This document shows positions 25,050 through 44,347 of a stretch of DNA of 64,000 nt, in pieces. Position 1 is the stretch's first letter. The number at the start of each line of letters is the position of its first letter. Origin of the DNA: Myxococcales bacterium (GTDB lineage: Bacteria; Myxococcota; UBA727; GCA-2721815); NCBI GenBank assembly GCA_002721815.1, contig PBLQ01000061.1:1-64000 (forward strand). The letters are read 5' to 3'. The notes under the pieces were generated by a model, which was given only the letters and a program-made list of their open reading frames with translations, was not told the origin of the DNA and did not search any database. A program made the translations under genes and the position numbers.

Positions 25050-28000
25050 TTGAATCGAACACATTTTTTCTCGCATTCCCAAGGTAACTTACGCTTCTTT
25101 TGCTTTGCGCTTCTTTCATGCGTGTGGGGCCTGGGGGCGACGCAAGCGCGCGGGGACATTCCCTCCATAGAGATATCTGGAGCGCTGTATACCTACGATG
25201 AAACCCCGACGGGGGTGGATGTTTTCCCGATTTCCGACGCACAGGTGGCCATCTATTACGACGATCAAGACGGAAACCCCGATAACGACTTGTTGGTGGC
25301 AGATGCGGATCTCGGCGTGGGGGAACAAAGTCAATTGGTGGGCAGCGACGGAACCTACGCCTTCACGGTGGTCCCTGGCCAGTACCGCCTTGAGGTGATT
25401 CCCAATGATCTGCTTTTGGCGTTTCCGTCCCAAAAATTTCCTGCTCGTTCAGATTCAAACGTGGCAGACGGTTACGGTGAAGCTTTCGAGGGTGGCGAGG
25501 TGGTTTCCCATGACATAAATGATGTTTTAACCACACAGCGTTATTATTTACGCTTTGACGTAGACGATTCGGCTTCACCGGTTTTAAATAACTTTATCCC
25601 ACTCGATCCTGTTAATGAGCGGGTCTCCATTCAAACTTCAGCTTCGTTAAAATCAGCGTCGGTGGGTGACATCATCACCTATCGCATTTCCGTTCAGAAC
25701 CGCTCATTGGGGGGCATTACCATGGATGACGGTGGCGTGGAGGTGGTGACAGAGCTGCCACAAGGCATCGAAATGGTAGAAGGCTCTTACGGCATTTTCG
25801 AAGTTATCACTGCCAATGGTTCTCCCGTGTTCACCCGCATCTCGGGCATTCCTGAACCGAGTGGGTCTTTTTTGCGGTTCGGTGCTTTTCCTCTCAACGC
25901 AGCCGGCCAGTACGAGATTCGCTTTAATACCAGGGTTCAGGCAAATGCCGCTTTGGGAGCACAGCTCACCAAGTCATTCATGCGGACCATCGCCGACCAA
26001 ACGCCCCTCACAGACACCGTGGGTGTGGCGGTCATGTTGGTACCTGACACTTTGTTGACGACCAGCACTGTGCTGGGCCGTGTTTTTTGTGATGCGAACA
26101 GTAACCAAGCACAGGATGGTGAAGAAGAAGGCATTGGCGGGGTATCGGTCTATTTGGATAATGGTTCCCGCGTCGTGACTGACGCTTCCGGCTTTTTTCA
26201 TTTTTCCCGAGTAGCAGCGGGCTCCCACCTGGCCAAACTGGATGATACCACTCTTCCGCCTGGGTCTCTTTCTGCGCATGGCGGCCGCGCCGCTTTTTAT
26301 CTGTCCCCCGGACTCCCTGGCCAACTGGCATTTCCCGTTCAATGTCTGAGCAACTGGGCCAAATCAGACATTATTGAATTGAACGAGAGCGTTTACCGGC
26401 CCCCGGGCACGCCGCCGCGCCGCTCCCGAGATATTCAGGTGAAGGGTAAACTGTCTCCCTTTGAGCTGTCTTTAGACAATAAAGAAGAAGGCGTCGGTTA
26501 CGTCAATCTGAGCATCACCTCAGAAGGCGGGGCCGCCAAAGGAAAGAAAAAGGGCCCGAACCTGCAAGGCTTGATCGATGGCGAGCTGCCCGCACCCTTA
26601 TTGTTTAGAACCACCTTCAAGAAAACAGACGTGCTCACATGGCAACTGACCATTTTAGACCTCACCGATAAGCCGGAGAATTTGCAGACTGCAGATGCCT
26701 TGTACTTTTTCGCTGGCCAGGGCCGTCCGTCATTGTACTTGTTGTGGGATGGCAAAGATGGCGTGAGCCAAAAACAGCTTTTAAAAGAAGGTCGACGGTA
26801 CGGGGCAACCATGACTTTTGTGACCGTTGAGGGCCATCAACTGCGTTCGCCCATTCGGACTTTCGGCGTTAAATGGCGTGATCCAAAAGAAAAACCAAAA
26901 ATCCCCGATGGTGTGCCGTGGGGAGAGGTCACGCTGCAAAGTCTCGATGCCATCGAAGGTCCTTTGTTCGATGCTGAGAGTGAGCCCACCGAGCGAACGA
27001 AAACATTCATTCAAGAAATGGCCACGGCTGTAAAGCCTGGCTACAAGATGGCCATCGAAGTTCATGGCTTTGACGAAGATGAAATCACGGCCATGAACAA
27101 CTCAAGAATACAGGCCGACAACGCGCGCGAGATTGCGTTAGAAAAAGGCCTGGAACGCCCTCAAATCGAGGCTGTTGGCAAAGGCATCGACGATACCTTG
27201 GTGATGCACATGGGCCTGCGCAACCGGCAACAAAATCATCGAATCGTAATCCTGGTCACAAAGCCACCCATTCCGCCCTTAGAGCCCGTGAAACCGCTCA
27301 GATGGCCCGAGCTGGTTTCCCTCCACGGGCAGCCTGCGGACATTGACAAGAAGGCACACACCTTCGACCAAACCATGCAAGCCGAGGTGGGACAACCCAT
27401 GATTCTGAGAATGCGTGCATCGGATGGCCGTTACCTACAAACAATACGAGTGGTTCAGGACAAAGAGATTTGGGCCCCAAAAAAGCCAGAGAAAAAAGTT
27501 CGAAAAGAAAAATTAACGGTGTACTGGCCCACCGCTCGAGCCAGGTTGGGTGAGGGATATTTTGACATCACGCATGCGCCGGTGACGCTCAAGGCTGAAC
27601 GTTTCGCAGAGGAAGGCCTCGCTTCCATCGAAAAGCTGAATGAAACCGAAGTCAGTTTGGGCTTTCGCATTCGCCGCGCGGGAGCGCTGCCTTGGGCGCG
27701 TTGGAAAATTGAAGTTTTTGAAGCATCCAAAGATGCAGGTGCTGCATTGGACAAACGTGCTGTCGACGATGGGTTTAAAAAGGTGCATCAGGTCCGCGGC
27801 CTAGGGGCTCCTCCCGAGGCGTACAGATTAACCGGTGTGATTCCCAATGACGAAGAGCCAAATGTACCCAAAACATGGATGGTATCGCCTGAGAAGGTTT
27901 ACCGACTTCGCATCAGTGCTGAAACCATCTATGGAGACAAGCTTGTCTCTAACCCCTTCAATGCTGCTTTGCGCGATGTTGATCCAGATCTCACAGCTGA

Positions 28001-31000
28001 ACAGGCGGATACTGAAACGGTGAGCGACGCCTTCAATGAAGACAGCAAGGAGTTAAATGCACCCTTACTCAAACGGCTCGATGCTTTAGCGGCCGAAATG
28101 AAAGATGATGAGACGCAACTGCGGATTGAGATTCACACCAATGACAATGCAGATGAGACGGCCGATCAAGCCACCTCAGATCAAGTTGGCCGCGCCATTG
28201 CGACCATTCTAAAAGAAAAAGGCATTAGTACCGATCGACTTCAGCTTGAGGCCAAGGGTGCTCGCGAGTTGGTGGACCCTGGTTTTTCAGCCTTCGGGGC
28301 CGCCAAAAACAGAAGGGTGGTTTTCCAGGTTCTGGCGTCGGCGGATGCATTTTCTGAAATGCCCCAGTTGGTGAAGCTAAAAATCGCTGGAAAAGCAGGC
28401 CGTGTCGACGGTCCCGAATTCTCCACCGATGTCAAAATTATCGAAAACCGTCCCATTAAGCTAGAACTGGGATTCGAAACAGGGGGGCAGGCCACCCTCT
28501 GGTTGTATCCCGAAATCCCAGAAGTTTTTTCGGGCGTGCCAAGCGCCTACGCGGATCGTTTGCAAACTTTACTGAGTGATTGGCGCCAACAAGAGAAAAG
28601 TCTGCCTTCAGCGAAGAAAAGCCAGCCCAAAGCTGAAGGGACCGAAAAAGCAGATAAAGGGGCGCAAGCGGATAAAAAAGAAAAAGGTGACACCAAACCG
28701 ACACCACCCTCCGAGCCTGCACCAGAGGCCTCGGGTGAAGCCTTGCTCGACCCCAGCAGCTTTGATGAAATGGACGAAGCCATCCCTTACCGGGGGGAAG
28801 GCACACCGCCTTTGTGGTGGCCCACACGCCGTGAAGTGCCTGCTGCAAAAATGGAACTGTGGTTGCCCGAGGACAGCCAAGAGACCATCGAGGCCGACAG
28901 CTTTTGGGTGAAAGGGAAGGCCGAACCGGGGACCCGCGTGATGGTTCAAGGTAAAGCCATTCCTGTTCACGCTGAATCAGGACACTTTCAACGACTGGTC
29001 GAATTTCAGAGCGATACGGACTTTTTGACCGTCGAAGGCGTCGACTGGATGGGAAATAAGGTCACTTGGCGCAAACCAGTGAAATACCAAGAGTCCAAGT
29101 TGTTCGCGTTGGTGATGGCTGAAGCGGCTGTGGGCAGTGGCGGAACCCCTTTGCTGGAACTGTCCGACGTCAACCATTTCGATTCCCCCGAAGTTCTGGT
29201 TTACGGGCGCACGGCAGCTTGGTTGAGAGGTCGCTTTAAGGGCGGCGCTTTGTTCTCGCAGTACGATTTAGATTTGCACCTCGACAGCGCACGCTGGGAT
29301 CAAGACGTTTTTGCGCCTTACATGCTCAACCTTGATGCGTCTTTCCCCACATTCGGTGACGACGCCCTTGAGACGTTTGTTCCTAACGCCCGCTACCCTT
29401 TGTATCTGCGCTTAAAGGCTGACGAGTCACATCTGCACGTGGGCAATATGAAGACCAACCTGCAACAGGGTTCTTATTTCAAGTATGACCATCCGCGTTA
29501 CGGTATGAAAATGCGATTCAATAAAGATTGGCAAAATGAAGATGTGGCGCAGAAAAACAAATGGCGTACAGACACTGAAGTTTTGGTGGCCGGCGGCGAC
29601 CCCTACCAACAATTCACCCGAAATGAATTCAGGGGGGCAGGCACGTCTTTGTATTTCCTCCGACACACCCAATTGATGGAGGGGAGTGAAGTGGTGACTT
29701 TGGTGGTTCGGGATAGGATTTCCGGGAACATCAAGACGCGTATTCCACAGGTTCGCGACCGGGATTACACCATTCAATACGCTGAAGGTCACATCATTTT
29801 TAAACAACCCGTTATGGCTTTTGTGAGCACTGACATGATGCTGTCCCAGCAACTGGCCTCGGTGAGTCACGGAGATCCGGTATTCGTGGAAGTCGGTTAT
29901 GGGTACCTGTCTCAAGAAGCATTTACGGGCCTCACTGCGGGGGGGCGTTTTACACAACACCTGGGTGGAAGTTTGGATGTGGGTTTAGGGTACTTGCAGG
30001 AAGGTCGTGAAACAGATGTGAGCGACTACAGTTTAGGCGAAGCTTTGGTCCGGTGGCGTCCCACCCAAAACAGTGAACTTGAATTGGAATACGCCTTTAG
30101 TACCGGGATTGATAACGAAAAGTGGTTGTCCCAAGACGGCGGTTTAACGTGGCAAGCCATGGGCCAACAACCTACAGATGGTGCCACTCAAATTGCGCAA
30201 ATCATCTATCCTCACGAACGATCAGGCAGTGCTTATCGGCTCAACTTACAAACCAAGCTGGGGCATCTTTTTAACCGGGCCCCTGAAGACTTTCTGGTAA
30301 GTACGTGGTTCAGGCGCGTTTCTTTGGGCTTCTTTTCTCAGGATACGGTGATGGCCCAAGGACAAACCACCTGGGGACTGGAGACCCGCGGCGCATTAAC
30401 CGATAAAGACGGACTTCGGTTGAGGTATGATGGCATCATCAACGAAATGCCCATCGTGCCCCAGGCGACGGCAGCGCGTGCTTTGCATCGGGAATTGGTC
30501 ACGGTCGCGTACGATCGAAAGGTCCTCGACAACCTCATGCTGCAGGCCACCTATGGTTACGGCTACATTTGGGACGAGGGCAACTTTCCCGAACTGACCT
30601 TAGAGGAACCGGCTTCATGGACCCAGCACTTGCTGGGCGCAGGCCTCATTTGGCATCCCATACAAAAATTGGGTTTGTTTGCGAGACAAGAATATTACGC
30701 TGGTGATTACCCGGTTGCGTTGCAAAGCGATGCCGAACGACTGGTCACTCATTTTGGTGCCGACTACCAACTCACATCGGCGCTATCCATCGGCATCATG
30801 GAGAGTGTGCGATTTGATGGTGAGAACCATCTTTCGTTACGTGCCAATTATGCAATGACCGATTCCTCTCAACTGTACGCGCAACAACGCTTTGGTTACG
30901 TTCAAGATGGTTGGTTGCAAACCAGCGTGGTGGGGGCTCAGCAACTCATCGGACAAAACACCCGCACATTTGCCGAGTACCAAATTCAAAACACCCAGTT

Positions 31001-31988
31001 TGGCAATGCGCATCAAGGCGTGGCTGGTTTAAGTTCTCAGTTTAAATTGCCTTTGGGTTTTCACTTGGGTGCCAGTTACGAATGGATCAATCGTTTGGGG
31101 GCCTCTAATGTGGTGAACCAAGCACAGGGCTATACGGTTCCCGGCGCATTGACCGACGGCATGTTCTTTGCCGCGCCAAGCGTGAACGGTGGTGGGGATT
31201 TCCTTTACGGCGCCATGTCTCGAGATGCCATTTCGCTCAACCTCTTCTACCAAGACAAATGGCCAGTGGTTGCTTCGCAAAGGCTCGAGTGGCGTTATGA
31301 TCAATTCGATGAGTTACGTGGAGGCTTCACCCGACAATGGTGGATGAGTAACAGTGCGGCAAAATGGAAAATCATTCCAGATTTAGAATTGTTTGGCCGT
31401 TATAACTTGGCGACAGCAGAAAATATTACCGCTGGCGATCAAGAAATGTACTTGGAAGAAGGGTCCTTTGGGTTGGCATATCGTCCGAAGGCACACAACA
31501 AATACCGTGTGTTGACTAAGTATTCTTCTCGCGTGTTGTCCCACCCTAGCGGTGAAGATGAATTTGCCGGAGCGTATTTGAGCCAAGCTTTGTCTTTAGA
31601 GCCCGTGATCCAGTTGCCTTTCGACTTGCAATGGGCTGACAAGTTAGCCCTCAAGAGTGTTCAAGTACAATTGCCTGGATTTGACGAGGCTGTCTCTTCT
31701 TATGTACTGTCGGTGAACCGGCTCAATTGGCAGTTGTTAAGAACCCTCAAGCGCTTCACCGCTTTTGATATGCCTGGCGATATAAACCTAGGCATTGAGT
31801 ATCGCATGCTGCTGGGGTTGGGCAACGAGGGGCTTGAAGAAGGCTGGCTCACCGAATTACAATATGCGCCCATGGATTTTTTCACTTTGGGGCTGGGCTA
31901 TAACTTCACCACTTTCTCTGACGATGTTTTGGATCCGGGCATCAACGATCACAGGGGTTTTTATTTTAGAGCGGTTGGTTATTACTAA
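25050..31988 (+). CDS. giant outer-membrane protein: DUF11/SdrD-B, two OmpA-like domains, beta-barrel
   Basis: A 2312-residue exported protein. Signal peptide (h-region FFCFALLSCVWG); a DUF11-like strand-rich domain (about 195-300); an SdrD_B/Cna_B-type fold (about 337-407, GRVFCDANSNQAQDG); a first OmpA-like domain (about 627-740, divergent RNRQQNHRIV); a second (about 990-1100, canonical NRRV end); a Lys/Glu/Pro spacer (about 1185-1230); then about 950 residues of alternating beta-strands ending YYFRAVGYY-like, as in an outer-membrane barrel with an aromatic C-terminus. It seems to bind peptidoglycan in the periplasm and fold as a porin-like barrel. The start is TTG; no better one precedes the signal peptide. 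It lies after pal/cpoB; ruvA follows. Confidence 0.75.
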   Translation: MNRTHFFSHSQGNLRFFCFALLSCVWGLGATQARGDIPSIEISGALYTYDETPTGVDVFPISDAQVAIYYDDQDGNPDNDLLVADADLGVGEQSQLVGSDGTYAFTVVPGQYRLEVIPNDLLLAFPSQKFPARSDSNVADGYGEAFEGGEVVSHDINDVLTTQRYYLRFDVDDSASPVLNNFIPLDPVNERVSIQTSASLKSASVGDIITYRISVQNRSLGGITMDDGGVEVVTELPQGIEMVEGSYGIFEVITANGSPVFTRISGIPEPSGSFLRFGAFPLNAAGQYEIRFNTRVQANAALGAQLTKSFMRTIADQTPLTDTVGVAVMLVPDTLLTTSTVLGRVFCDANSNQAQDGEEEGIGGVSVYLDNGSRVVTDASGFFHFSRVAAGSHLAKLDDTTLPPGSLSAHGGRAAFYLSPGLPGQLAFPVQCLSNWAKSDIIELNESVYRPPGTPPRRSRDIQVKGKLSPFELSLDNKEEGVGYVNLSITSEGGAAKGKKKGPNLQGLIDGELPAPLLFRTTFKKTDVLTWQLTILDLTDKPENLQTADALYFFAGQGRPSLYLLWDGKDGVSQKQLLKEGRRYGATMTFVTVEGHQLRSPIRTFGVKWRDPKEKPKIPDGVPWGEVTLQSLDAIEGPLFDAESEPTERTKTFIQEMATAVKPGYKMAIEVHGFDEDEITAMNNSRIQADNAREIALEKGLERPQIEAVGKGIDDTLVMHMGLRNRQQNHRIVILVTKPPIPPLEPVKPLRWPELVSLHGQPADIDKKAHTFDQTMQAEVGQPMILRMRASDGRYLQTIRVVQDKEIWAPKKPEKKVRKEKLTVYWPTARARLGEGYFDITHAPVTLKAERFAEEGLASIEKLNETEVSLGFRIRRAGALPWARWKIEVFEASKDAGAALDKRAVDDGFKKVHQVRGLGAPPEAYRLTGVIPNDEEPNVPKTWMVSPEKVYRLRISAETIYGDKLVSNPFNAALRDVDPDLTAEQADTETVSDAFNEDSKELNAPLLKRLDALAAEMKDDETQLRIEIHTNDNADETADQATSDQVGRAIATILKEKGISTDRLQLEAKGARELVDPGFSAFGAAKNRRVVFQVLASADAFSEMPQLVKLKIAGKAGRVDGPEFSTDVKIIENRPIKLELGFETGGQATLWLYPEIPEVFSGVPSAYADRLQTLLSDWRQQEKSLPSAKKSQPKAEGTEKADKGAQADKKEKGDTKPTPPSEPAPEASGEALLDPSSFDEMDEAIPYRGEGTPPLWWPTRREVPAAKMELWLPEDSQETIEADSFWVKGKAEPGTRVMVQGKAIPVHAESGHFQRLVEFQSDTDFLTVEGVDWMGNKVTWRKPVKYQESKLFALVMAEAAVGSGGTPLLELSDVNHFDSPEVLVYGRTAAWLRGRFKGGALFSQYDLDLHLDSARWDQDVFAPYMLNLDASFPTFGDDALETFVPNARYPLYLRLKADESHLHVGNMKTNLQQGSYFKYDHPRYGMKMRFNKDWQNEDVAQKNKWRTDTEVLVAGGDPYQQFTRNEFRGAGTSLYFLRHTQLMEGSEVVTLVVRDRISGNIKTRIPQVRDRDYTIQYAEGHIIFKQPVMAFVSTDMMLSQQLASVSHGDPVFVEVGYGYLSQEAFTGLTAGGRFTQHLGGSLDVGLGYLQEGRETDVSDYSLGEALVRWRPTQNSELELEYAFSTGIDNEKWLSQDGGLTWQAMGQQPTDGATQIAQIIYPHERSGSAYRLNLQTKLGHLFNRAPEDFLVSTWFRRVSLGFFSQDTVMAQGQTTWGLETRGALTDKDGLRLRYDGIINEMPIVPQATAARALHRELVTVAYDRKVLDNLMLQATYGYGYIWDEGNFPELTLEEPASWTQHLLGAGLIWHPIQKLGLFARQEYYAGDYPVALQSDAERLVTHFGADYQLTSALSIGIMESVRFDGENHLSLRANYAMTDSSQLYAQQRFGYVQDGWLQTSVVGAQQLIGQNTRTFAEYQIQNTQFGNAHQGVAGLSSQFKLPLGFHLGASYEWINRLGASNVVNQAQGYTVPGALTDGMFFAAPSVNGGGDFLYGAMSRDAISLNLFYQDKWPVVASQRLEWRYDQFDELRGGFTRQWWMSNSAAKWKIIPDLELFGRYNLATAENITAGDQEMYLEEGSFGLAYRPKAHNKYRVLTKYSSRVLSHPSGEDEFAGAYLSQALSLEPVIQLPFDLQWADKLALKSVQVQLPGFDEAVSSYVLSVNRLNWQLLRTLKRFTAFDMPGDINLGIEYRMLLGLGNEGLEEGWLTELQYAPMDFFTLGLGYNFTTFSDDVLDPGINDHRGFYFRAVGYY

Positions 31989-42400: not shown

Positions 42401-44224
42401 TTACAGGCTTTTTCCACATCGTTTCGCAAGGTCGGCTTTGTCGATGGCCTTTGAAAGCGCTTCTTCATAAGTGACTTTGTTTTCTGCCACCAGTCGGGCC
42501 AATTCGAAGTTGAGCATTTGGTTGCCCAGCGAACGGGTGGTGGACATGATGTTAGGAATTTGAAAGTTTTTCCCGTCACGAATGAGATTAGAGATGGCGT
42601 TGTTCACTTGCAGGATCTCTAAAGCGGCCACACGTCCGCCGCCCTTTTTCTTAAGCAAGGTTTGAGAGATGACACCTTTGAGGGATTCACCAAGGACCGA
42701 CCGAACTTGATTTTGTTGATCGGCGGGAAACATATCGATGATCCGGTCAATAGACGAAACAGCTGTGGCCGTATGGAGGGTCCCAAAGACCATGTGACCC
42801 GTGTTGGCCGTTTCTAGGGCCAGGTGGACGGTTTCAAGGTCTCGCATTTCGCCCACCAGGACGATATCGGGATCCTCACGTAACGCAGCTTTTAAAGCTC
42901 TCGAAAAACTCTGGGTATGAGGCCCCACCTCGCGCTGATTGAAGAGGCACTGTTGGCTTTTGTGCACAAATTCCACTGGGTCTTCCAGGGTCAGCACGTG
43001 GGCTTTTCGGGTTTTGTTGATGTAGTCCATCATCCCGGCCAAGGTGGTGGACTTTCCGCTTCCTGTGGGGCCCGTGACCAAAATAAGGCCTTTGGGGTGG
43101 GCGCAAAGGTTTCGTACCGCGTCGGGCAGGCCCAGTTGCTCCATGGTTAAGATGGTGGAGGGGATTTGTCGGAGCACTGCACCGACACCCAACCGATCGC
43201 GAAAGAGGTTACAGCGGAAACGTGCCAAACCTTCGATGGCATAAGCGAAATCGGTGTCGTTGATATCTAGAAATTCTTCAATGTTACGATCGTCCATGAT
43301 GGGTTTAAACAAACCCCAGACTTCCTCAGGGCCCAGCTCATGCGTGTCTTCGATGACCAAGATATCACCATCCACGCGCCAGCGAGGTTTGTGTCCCGCG
43401 GATAAATGTAAATCGGATGCGCCTTCTGCCACCATGCGCTTGAGAAGTTTGTCCAGCTCAGGATTACTCTTTTTCGTCGCTGCGTTATTGTTTATCGCGG
43501 GTTTGGGCAATCGGTTCTCAGCGCCGCTGGTTTGTCCCATAAAGGCATTGAAAAAGGCGGCGGTGATGCGCAGTTGTTGCACCTCCATACCGGGCAGTTG
43601 GTGTTTGAGCGCATTGATGGTGCTGGATTCAGGGGCATCTACCAAACCGACTTTGATGTGGTTCCCTTGGATTTCCAGAGGAATGGTCCTGTGTCGTTGC
43701 ATGAAGTCCATCGGTAACAGGGCGCGGGCCTCTTTGGAAACAGCTGTCACTTCTTTATCGTACAGCGGAAGAGACATGTGTTGAGAAGCTTCGGAAAGTC
43801 TCTTCGAAAGCGCGCGTGCAATGGCTTTGCCAAACCCAGGCACTTTTTCGAACATGCGATCAAAGGTTGAAGAATCCATGGCCATGAGCAGCGAAGGTTT
43901 GGTGGCCACCACGCTGGCGGTTCTTTTTTCTTCAAGGAGAACACCCATTTCTCCTATGATTTCGGACCCACCCAGTCTACAAAGCTCGGTGCCGCTGTCA
44001 GCGGCCCCTTTGTGAATGGCGACCTCGCCTGCCACCACCACAAAAAATGATTTGGACGGTTCGCCTGCTTGCACCACCACGTCGTTCTCCTCGAACCGGA
44101 TGAGCTTGGATTTGTCTACCAGTTGTTGGAGCACTTCGGGCTTGAGACTTTGGAAAAAGTCGGATTGTTGTAAGGCTCCCGCAACTTTTTTGAGAATATC
44201 TGGTGCGTGTTCGACTTCTTGCAT
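42401..44224 (-). CDS. PilT-like ATPase with N-terminal cyclic-nucleotide-binding domain
   Basis: A 607-residue fusion. Residues about 20-140 are a cNMP-binding beta-roll with phosphate cassette GEMGVLLEEKRTASVV, including the arginine that contacts the phosphate. Residues about 145-230 resemble the MshEN/GspE N-terminal domain (LPMDFMQRHRTIPLEIQGNHI). The rest is a PilT-type motor with Walker A GPTGSGKS (about 383-390), AIRED-like LREDPDIVLVGEMRD, and HTATAVSSIDRIIDMFP. PilT powers pilus retraction; the added domains suggest control by cAMP or c-di-GMP, which is inference. The start at 44224 follows GAGGGG. Typical PilT has about 340 residues. No pil genes are nearby. Confidence 0.88.
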   Translation of the reverse strand: MQEVEHAPDILKKVAGALQQSDFFQSLKPEVLQQLVDKSKLIRFEENDVVVQAGEPSKSFFVVVAGEVAIHKGAADSGTELCRLGGSEIIGEMGVLLEEKRTASVVATKPSLLMAMDSSTFDRMFEKVPGFGKAIARALSKRLSEASQHMSLPLYDKEVTAVSKEARALLPMDFMQRHRTIPLEIQGNHIKVGLVDAPESSTINALKHQLPGMEVQQLRITAAFFNAFMGQTSGAENRLPKPAINNNAATKKSNPELDKLLKRMVAEGASDLHLSAGHKPRWRVDGDILVIEDTHELGPEEVWGLFKPIMDDRNIEEFLDINDTDFAYAIEGLARFRCNLFRDRLGVGAVLRQIPSTILTMEQLGLPDAVRNLCAHPKGLILVTGPTGSGKSTTLAGMMDYINKTRKAHVLTLEDPVEFVHKSQQCLFNQREVGPHTQSFSRALKAALREDPDIVLVGEMRDLETVHLALETANTGHMVFGTLHTATAVSSIDRIIDMFPADQQNQVRSVLGESLKGVISQTLLKKKGGGRVAALEILQVNNAISNLIRDGKNFQIPNIMSTTRSLGNQMLNFELARLVAENKVTYEEALSKAIDKADLAKRCGKSL

Positions 44225-44347
44225 AAACCCCTCTTTACCAGTCACCGATCCATGGTGGCGAGGTTTGATGGTCGAGCATTGACCCCAAAAAAGCAAGAAA
44301 ACGACCCGGGTTTGGCGGGCCCCAAAAAGCGGTAAAATTGAATGAAA

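Follow-up and report, generated by a model that had tools for sequence, protein, structure and literature searches.

A gene in the window, by which we mean the whole 64,000-nucleotide stretch of DNA analysed here, encodes what is probably an accessory PilT-type retraction ATPase under the control of a CRP-type cyclic nucleotide (cNMP; cAMP or cGMP) sensor, which sits on an adapter resembling the C-terminal subdomain of MshEN and the N1E part of GspE. We give this reading, which draws on sequence comparison and structure prediction, a probability of roughly 0.57. The cNMP sensor most likely replaces the c-di-GMP sensor of extension motors such as PilB, and it is likely that at most one messenger controls the motor through its N-terminal part.

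A single reading frame joins a cNMP-binding domain, an adapter and a PilT motor

A single minus-strand open frame encodes the protein (Table 1). We prefer the ATG at 44224 over the mechanical TTG start at 44296 because methionine occupies the same first column in all aligned fusion members (8/8); the ribosome-binding-site-like stretch AAAGAGGGG, recognised by eye, lies upstream and also supports this start. A promoter and terminator scan found nothing above chance level, and a PHROGs search returned matches solely to families of unknown function. Pfam assigns residues 151-220 to PF05157, named MshEN (3.4e-8, 33.8 bits against a cut-off of 23.1), and the region from residue 256 onward to T2SSE (9.8e-48). 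The linker ahead of the motor has pLDDT values below 50 at residues 233-250 in the full-chain AlphaFold model and at 235-255 in the model of residues 1-255. The same order of cNMP, MshEN and PilT domains recurs in eight other genomes, so the fusion is not a product of chance or a frameshift artefact. An earlier, sequence-only reading had proposed a PilT fused to cNMP-binding and MshEN-like domains and had suggested looking for the fusion elsewhere; the fusion itself holds, within one frame and across genomes, and the MshEN part has to be narrowed to its C-terminal subdomain.

Table 1 Features of the fusion gene (positions in the window)
Feature	Positions	Strand	Residues	Basis or remark
Gene: cNMP, MshEN C-subdomain (N1E-like), PilT motor	42401..44224	-	607 aa	ATG at 44224
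Ribosome-binding-site-like AAAGAGGGG ahead of ATG	44228..44236	-		Read by eye, no statistic
cNMP-binding domain	43844..44101	-	42-127	PF00027 2.3e-16; genome-wide search at same place; structure matches
Phosphate-binding cassette with E92, R101, T102	43904..43954	-	91-107	Alignment with E. coli CRP E72/R82/S83
C-helix with R142 (CRP R123) and S147 (CRP S128)	43784..43840	-	129-147	AlphaFold helix and alignment
PF05157 match: MshEN C-terminal subdomain / GspE N1E-like, without c-di-GMP motifs	43565..43774	-	151-220	
Low-confidence linker	43463..43528	-	233-254	AlphaFold pLDDT
PilT motor	42434..43456	-	257-597	TIGR01420 449 bits; 3jvu 369 bits; fold match
Walker A GPTGSGKS	43049..43072	-	385-392	
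Atypical Walker B DIVLVGE with catalytic Glu	42848..42868	-	453-459	
AISNLIRD, at place of PilT motif AIRNLIRE	42575..42598	-	543-550	

The cNMP domain keeps the ligand contacts of CRP

The ligand contacts of Bd1971 and CRP are Glu58/72, Arg67/82, Ser68/83 and Arg108/123, respectively (PMC6717892; this and the other papers are cited from excerpts of their text). Glu72, Arg82, Ser83 and Arg123 of E. coli CRP align with E92, R101, T102 and R142 of the window protein, so that the ribose-contacting Glu, the phosphate-contacting Arg/Ser and the base-capping Arg are all matched, and the intact cassette arginine of the sequence-only reading is confirmed as R101. We compared nine distinct members (the window protein, L007, L008, L009, L026, L027, L028, L082 and L105), eight of them in the alignment, with the residues of L105 read separately. 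Arg101 and Arg142 are present in 9/9, position 102 is Ser or Thr in 9/9, and Glu92 is kept in 8/9, with Asp in L105. Position 147, at the place of CRP Ser128, also holds Ser or Thr in every member (9/9). The AlphaFold model of residues 1-255 has a mean pLDDT of 82.8, and its top Foldseek matches are cAMP-bound GlxR (1.4e-12) and M. tuberculosis CRP; VIA-align superposes it on the latter (4a2u) with a Z of 18.9 and an rmsd of 2.3 over 140.

In an alternative reading, ligand control has been lost, the cNMP domain serves for structure or docking or else binds some other ligand, and the motor is just a second PilT. Folds of the cNMP type that do not bind cAMP exist (FNR/DNR type), and the DNR sensor domain 2z69 is among the fold matches of residues 1-255; moreover, even where the cassette is intact, a cNMP fold may accept a different ligand or no ligand at all. 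A relative, L010, retains a cNMP domain in front of PilT and has lost the cassette Arg, the Ser/Thr that follows it and the adapter, indicating that some lineages can do without binding. Against this, the contact residues are kept in nine members from two phyla, although over residues 1-255 the window protein is just 31-37% identical overall to the other seven aligned members. We regard loss of ligand control as unlikely and favour a cNMP domain that, judging by its conserved contacts, would bind cAMP or cGMP. The Ser/Thr after the cassette Arg occurs in both cGMP kinases and CRPs activated by cAMP (PMC6717892), so T102 leaves the choice between cAMP and cGMP undecided.

The motor is of the PilT type and accompanies a canonical PilT

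The NCBIfam PilT/PilU model TIGR01420 matches residues 257-597 with 449 bits, over its curated cut-off of 319.1. The solved structures nearest by sequence are PilTs (P. aeruginosa PilT 3jvu, 369 bits; 2ewv, 349 bits), while PilU 9n32 reaches 254 bits and GspE/PilB structures at most 127. A full-chain AlphaFold model (mean pLDDT 79.7, pTM 0.49) matches Geobacter PilT-4 in Foldseek at 1.3e-39 and is 53% identical to 3jvv over the motor. Walker A (385), the atypical Walker B with its catalytic Glu (453), and the Asp and His boxes are all present; E414, D415, H477 and H484 are invariant in a 12-row alignment, and the window protein contains no CxxC zinc motif. AISNLIRD is identical to AIRNLIRE, a PilT motif missing from PilU (PMC6762196), at 6/8 positions, with the motif Arg replaced by Ser.

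A canonical 373-aa PilT adjoins PilB on contig C53 of the same genome, which makes the window gene a second PilT and rules it out as the only or main one. The host genome further contains a full-length PilM match, 13 class III cyclase domain matches, 6 GGDEF matches and 25 cNMP matches; cyclases, PilM and the set of pilus motors together make it plausible that both ligand and pilus are present. The nine neighbours of the gene in the window, scanned with Pfam, include no pilus or cyclase gene; they are NlpC/P60, MutY-like, S1-domain, endonuclease/phosphatase, RNase J and TruA-like genes and three genes without a Pfam match. Inspection by eye recognised no pilus gene among the Archangium neighbours (L080) or in the surroundings of L082. 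A 2312-aa open frame also lies in the window, on the plus strand at 25050-31988.

The motor might instead have a task other than retracting the main type IV pilus, for example in another pilus-like system, since the genome holds three assembly-type ATPases besides its two PilTs (contigs C22 and C44 also carry such ATPases), the gene stands apart from the pil genes, and N1E-like adapters are typically seen in assembly motors. We consider this distinctly improbable, because the motor is PilT-like by the scores given above and lacks CxxC.

The adapter lacks the c-di-GMP-binding motifs

MshEN proteins are c-di-GMP receptors (PMC5013675). Their binding motif, RLGxx..., occurs in an N-terminal four-helix bundle as two 24-residue copies separated by about 5 residues, and the C-terminal alpha/beta subdomain adds a single hydrogen bond to c-di-GMP (PMC5013675, PMC11731258), with one Asp of this subdomain hydrogen-bonded to the ligand in PilF and MshE (PMC11731258). 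A relaxed form of the published pattern has 0 matches in the window protein. Taken strictly, however, it also misses two assembly ATPases of the same genome, L001 and L003, and we therefore scored motif pairs at the right spacing, out of 22, comparing each score with 300 shuffles. The best pair in residues 1-255 of the window protein scores 16/22, which is equalled in 49/300 shuffles. The other fusion members score 14 (L007), 17 (L008), 16 (L009), 14 (L026), 15 (L027), 15 (L028), 14 (L082) and 14 (L105), each equalled in at least 35/300 shuffles. By contrast, the host's own PilB (L043) scores 20/22, equalled in 0/300; its L044 scores 21/22, likewise 0/300. Among the other proteins of the genome that were scored, the values are 18 for L045 (the same as L001; 2/300), 15 for L047 (the same as L003; 152/300), 16 each for L048 and L049 (103 and 67 of 300) and 14 for the canonical PilT, L005 (283/300). 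One of these, L048 (250-2559 on contig C70), is a 770-aa protein with a start that looks kinase-like by eye and a PF05157 match, and it has no clear RLG pair; it puts the MshEN C-subdomain to yet another use.

The two motifs of the host's PilB span residues 4-27 and 33-56; its PF05157 match starts near residue 57. The Pfam model named MshEN thus describes the C-terminal subdomain only, after the c-di-GMP motifs, and a match to it alone says nothing about c-di-GMP binding; counting MshEN domains by PF05157 can therefore overstate the number of c-di-GMP receptors. In AlphaFold models of the window protein, the adapter follows the cNMP domain with no four-helix bundle in between, and the place of the c-di-GMP-binding bundle is taken by the cNMP domain with its C-helix (129-147).

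Gating by two nucleotides, in which the N-terminal domain would take cNMP and the MshEN-like domain c-di-GMP, as the sequence-only reading had it, can point to the PF05157 match above cut-off, to the receptor role of MshEN proteins (PMC5013675) and to the hydrogen-bonding Asp in PilF and MshE (PMC11731258), yet it is very improbable, because the bundle with both 24-residue motifs is absent from the protein and from its models, and the Pfam match in PilB itself starts directly after motif II. Binding of c-di-GMP by the MshEN-like domain is not supported by the sequence, in which both motifs and the bundle are missing, and we reject it. The careful alignment of the motif removes only this arm of the earlier proposal; the cNMP arm retains the support of residue conservation.

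As for the adapter itself, AlphaFold predicts the order helix-strand-strand-helix-strand-helix in the model of residues 1-255, for which hits to the cNMP domain take up the VIA-align match list, so that the adapter fold is barely probed there. The relative L101 has a GSPE_N1E (PF22341) match at 1.1e-4, below the cut-off of that model, and phmmer with residues 151-252 gave weak matches only, with a pilus biogenesis protein at the top (0.015). N1E is the part of GspE that contacts GspL. By its title, 4pht is a structure of GspE together with the GspL cytoplasmic domain. By analogy with this contact, docking of the motor to its platform would be a reasonable role for an N1E-like adapter.

The fusion is rare and may have arisen once

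The full cNMP-MshEN-PilT order is found in 7/195 genomes of the window's phylum (G000, G006, G008, G029, G103, G104, G187) and in 2/396 genomes of a second phylum (G195, G475), the latter sampled evenly from a larger phylum; the architecture is rare. Six candidates per genome were scored in the window's phylum and three in the second, so that these counts could overlook an additional, weaker fusion within the same genome. We also scanned contigs with two short peptide patterns taken from 4/7 members then known, which could miss diverged members, and obtained 20 loci. Five of them carry the fusion and correspond, by their coordinates, to the records of G104, G103, G195, G008 and G006, adding no new member; the other 15 show 24-33% identity, confined or almost confined to the cNMP part.

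A tree of PilT domains was built from 42 rows after removal of duplicates. It leaves out L028/L081 (G103, cut by the contig end), L105 and L101, the last being the same protein as L082, which is in the tree. The seven fusion rows form one clade with L010 (100/99), and L010 is the nearest relative of the window protein (98/92). From these sequences, the simplest history would be a single origin of the fusion followed by partial loss in L010 (916-2565), in which the adapter and the cassette Arg are both gone. The fusion member L082 (819-2876), or L101, has a PDZ domain at its C-terminal end, behind the motor (PF17820, 2.6e-8).

Adjoining the fusion clade is a group of 25 PilTs. A profile comparison of 15 N-terminal extensions, 12 from this group and 3 from the second phylum, with the PilT N-domain gave a probability of 97.6% (3.6e-12 over 97 columns), and on this comparison the group's extension is a second PilT N-domain in degenerate form. 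Counting the fusion, this branch of PilT has thus gained N-terminal add-ons at least twice. The second-copy extension is followed by a Pro/Ala-rich linker before the motor in L011-L020, L029, L031, L106, L107 and L109, and many more open frames of such extended length exist in both sampled phyla.

Proposed mechanism and significance

In the preferred reading, a cNMP-controlled accessory retraction motor, nucleotide binding would close the sensor on its C-helix, the adapter would relay the movement of this helix to the motor, and ATP turnover, hexamer symmetry or docking would be altered as the outcome, with the pilus served presumably being a type IV pilus. We infer the binding of cNMP, the direction of its effect, the coupling route and the target pilus. 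Weighing against this explanation are the neighbours without pilus or cyclase genes, the change of the AIRNLIRE Arg to Ser and the full-chain pTM of 0.49.

Since CRP-type domains pair through the C-helix and the place of CRP Ser128 holds Ser or Thr in all nine members, three sensor dimers could form on a hexamer. This leads to a tentative extension, possible in our view and rather doubtful, in which the sensors have been swapped on a shared adapter, such that extension motors respond to c-di-GMP and the retraction motor to cAMP or cGMP, and six sensors pair into three dimers through which the nucleotide would switch the symmetry of the hexamer. If this swap were true, extension and retraction in one cell would be set by different second messengers.

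Direct nucleotide control of type IV pilus motors has mostly concerned c-di-GMP acting on the extension motor (PMC5013675, PMC11731258), and cAMP control of pili has been described as transcriptional, through SyCRP1/2 (PMC7690835). If confirmed, a cAMP-type sensor built into a retraction motor would be a direct and fast control route. Pili are reported to signal surface contact via cAMP and c-di-GMP (PMC7690835), and in that case the motor could feed back on itself.

Comparison with known systems

The window protein shares with PilT (TIGR01420; P. aeruginosa 3jvu/3jvv) the complete motor, Walker A and B and an AIRNLIRE-like motif, and differs from it in 255 extra residues at the front, which hold the cNMP domain and the MshEN C-subdomain, and in the Arg to Ser change in AIRNLIRE. 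With the extension ATPases PilB, MshE and PilF, which carry MshEN (GSPII), it has in common the C-terminal MshEN subdomain before the motor; unlike them, it has a cNMP domain where they have the c-di-GMP bundle, a motor of PilT type and no CxxC. Accessory motors such as PilU and PilT2 are likewise second PilT-like motors beside a canonical PilT. The window motor scores closer to PilT than to PilU and largely keeps AIRNLIRE, which PilU lacks (PMC6762196).

Sensor-enzyme fusions offer the closest parallel for the N-terminal part. Bdellovibrio Bd1971 (cNMP-EAL) has an N-terminal CRP-type sensor on an enzyme, with the same contact residues (PMC6717892), and the mycobacterial acetyltransferase Pat (cNMP-acetyltransferase; 4avb/4oll) is among both the sequence and the fold matches of the window protein. 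The output is a PilT-type motor ATPase in the window protein, an EAL domain in Bd1971 and an acetyltransferase in Pat. We found no description of a PilT-cNMP fusion in the open-licence PMC literature, and other papers or database architecture pages may hold one; the excerpts of PMC11731258, PMC5013675, PMC8316039, PMC6762196, PMC6717892 and PMC7690835 contain none. Enzymes gated by cNMP, such as Bd1971 and Pat, and paralogues of PilT are thus known already, and what appears to be new is a cNMP sensor on a pilus retraction motor.
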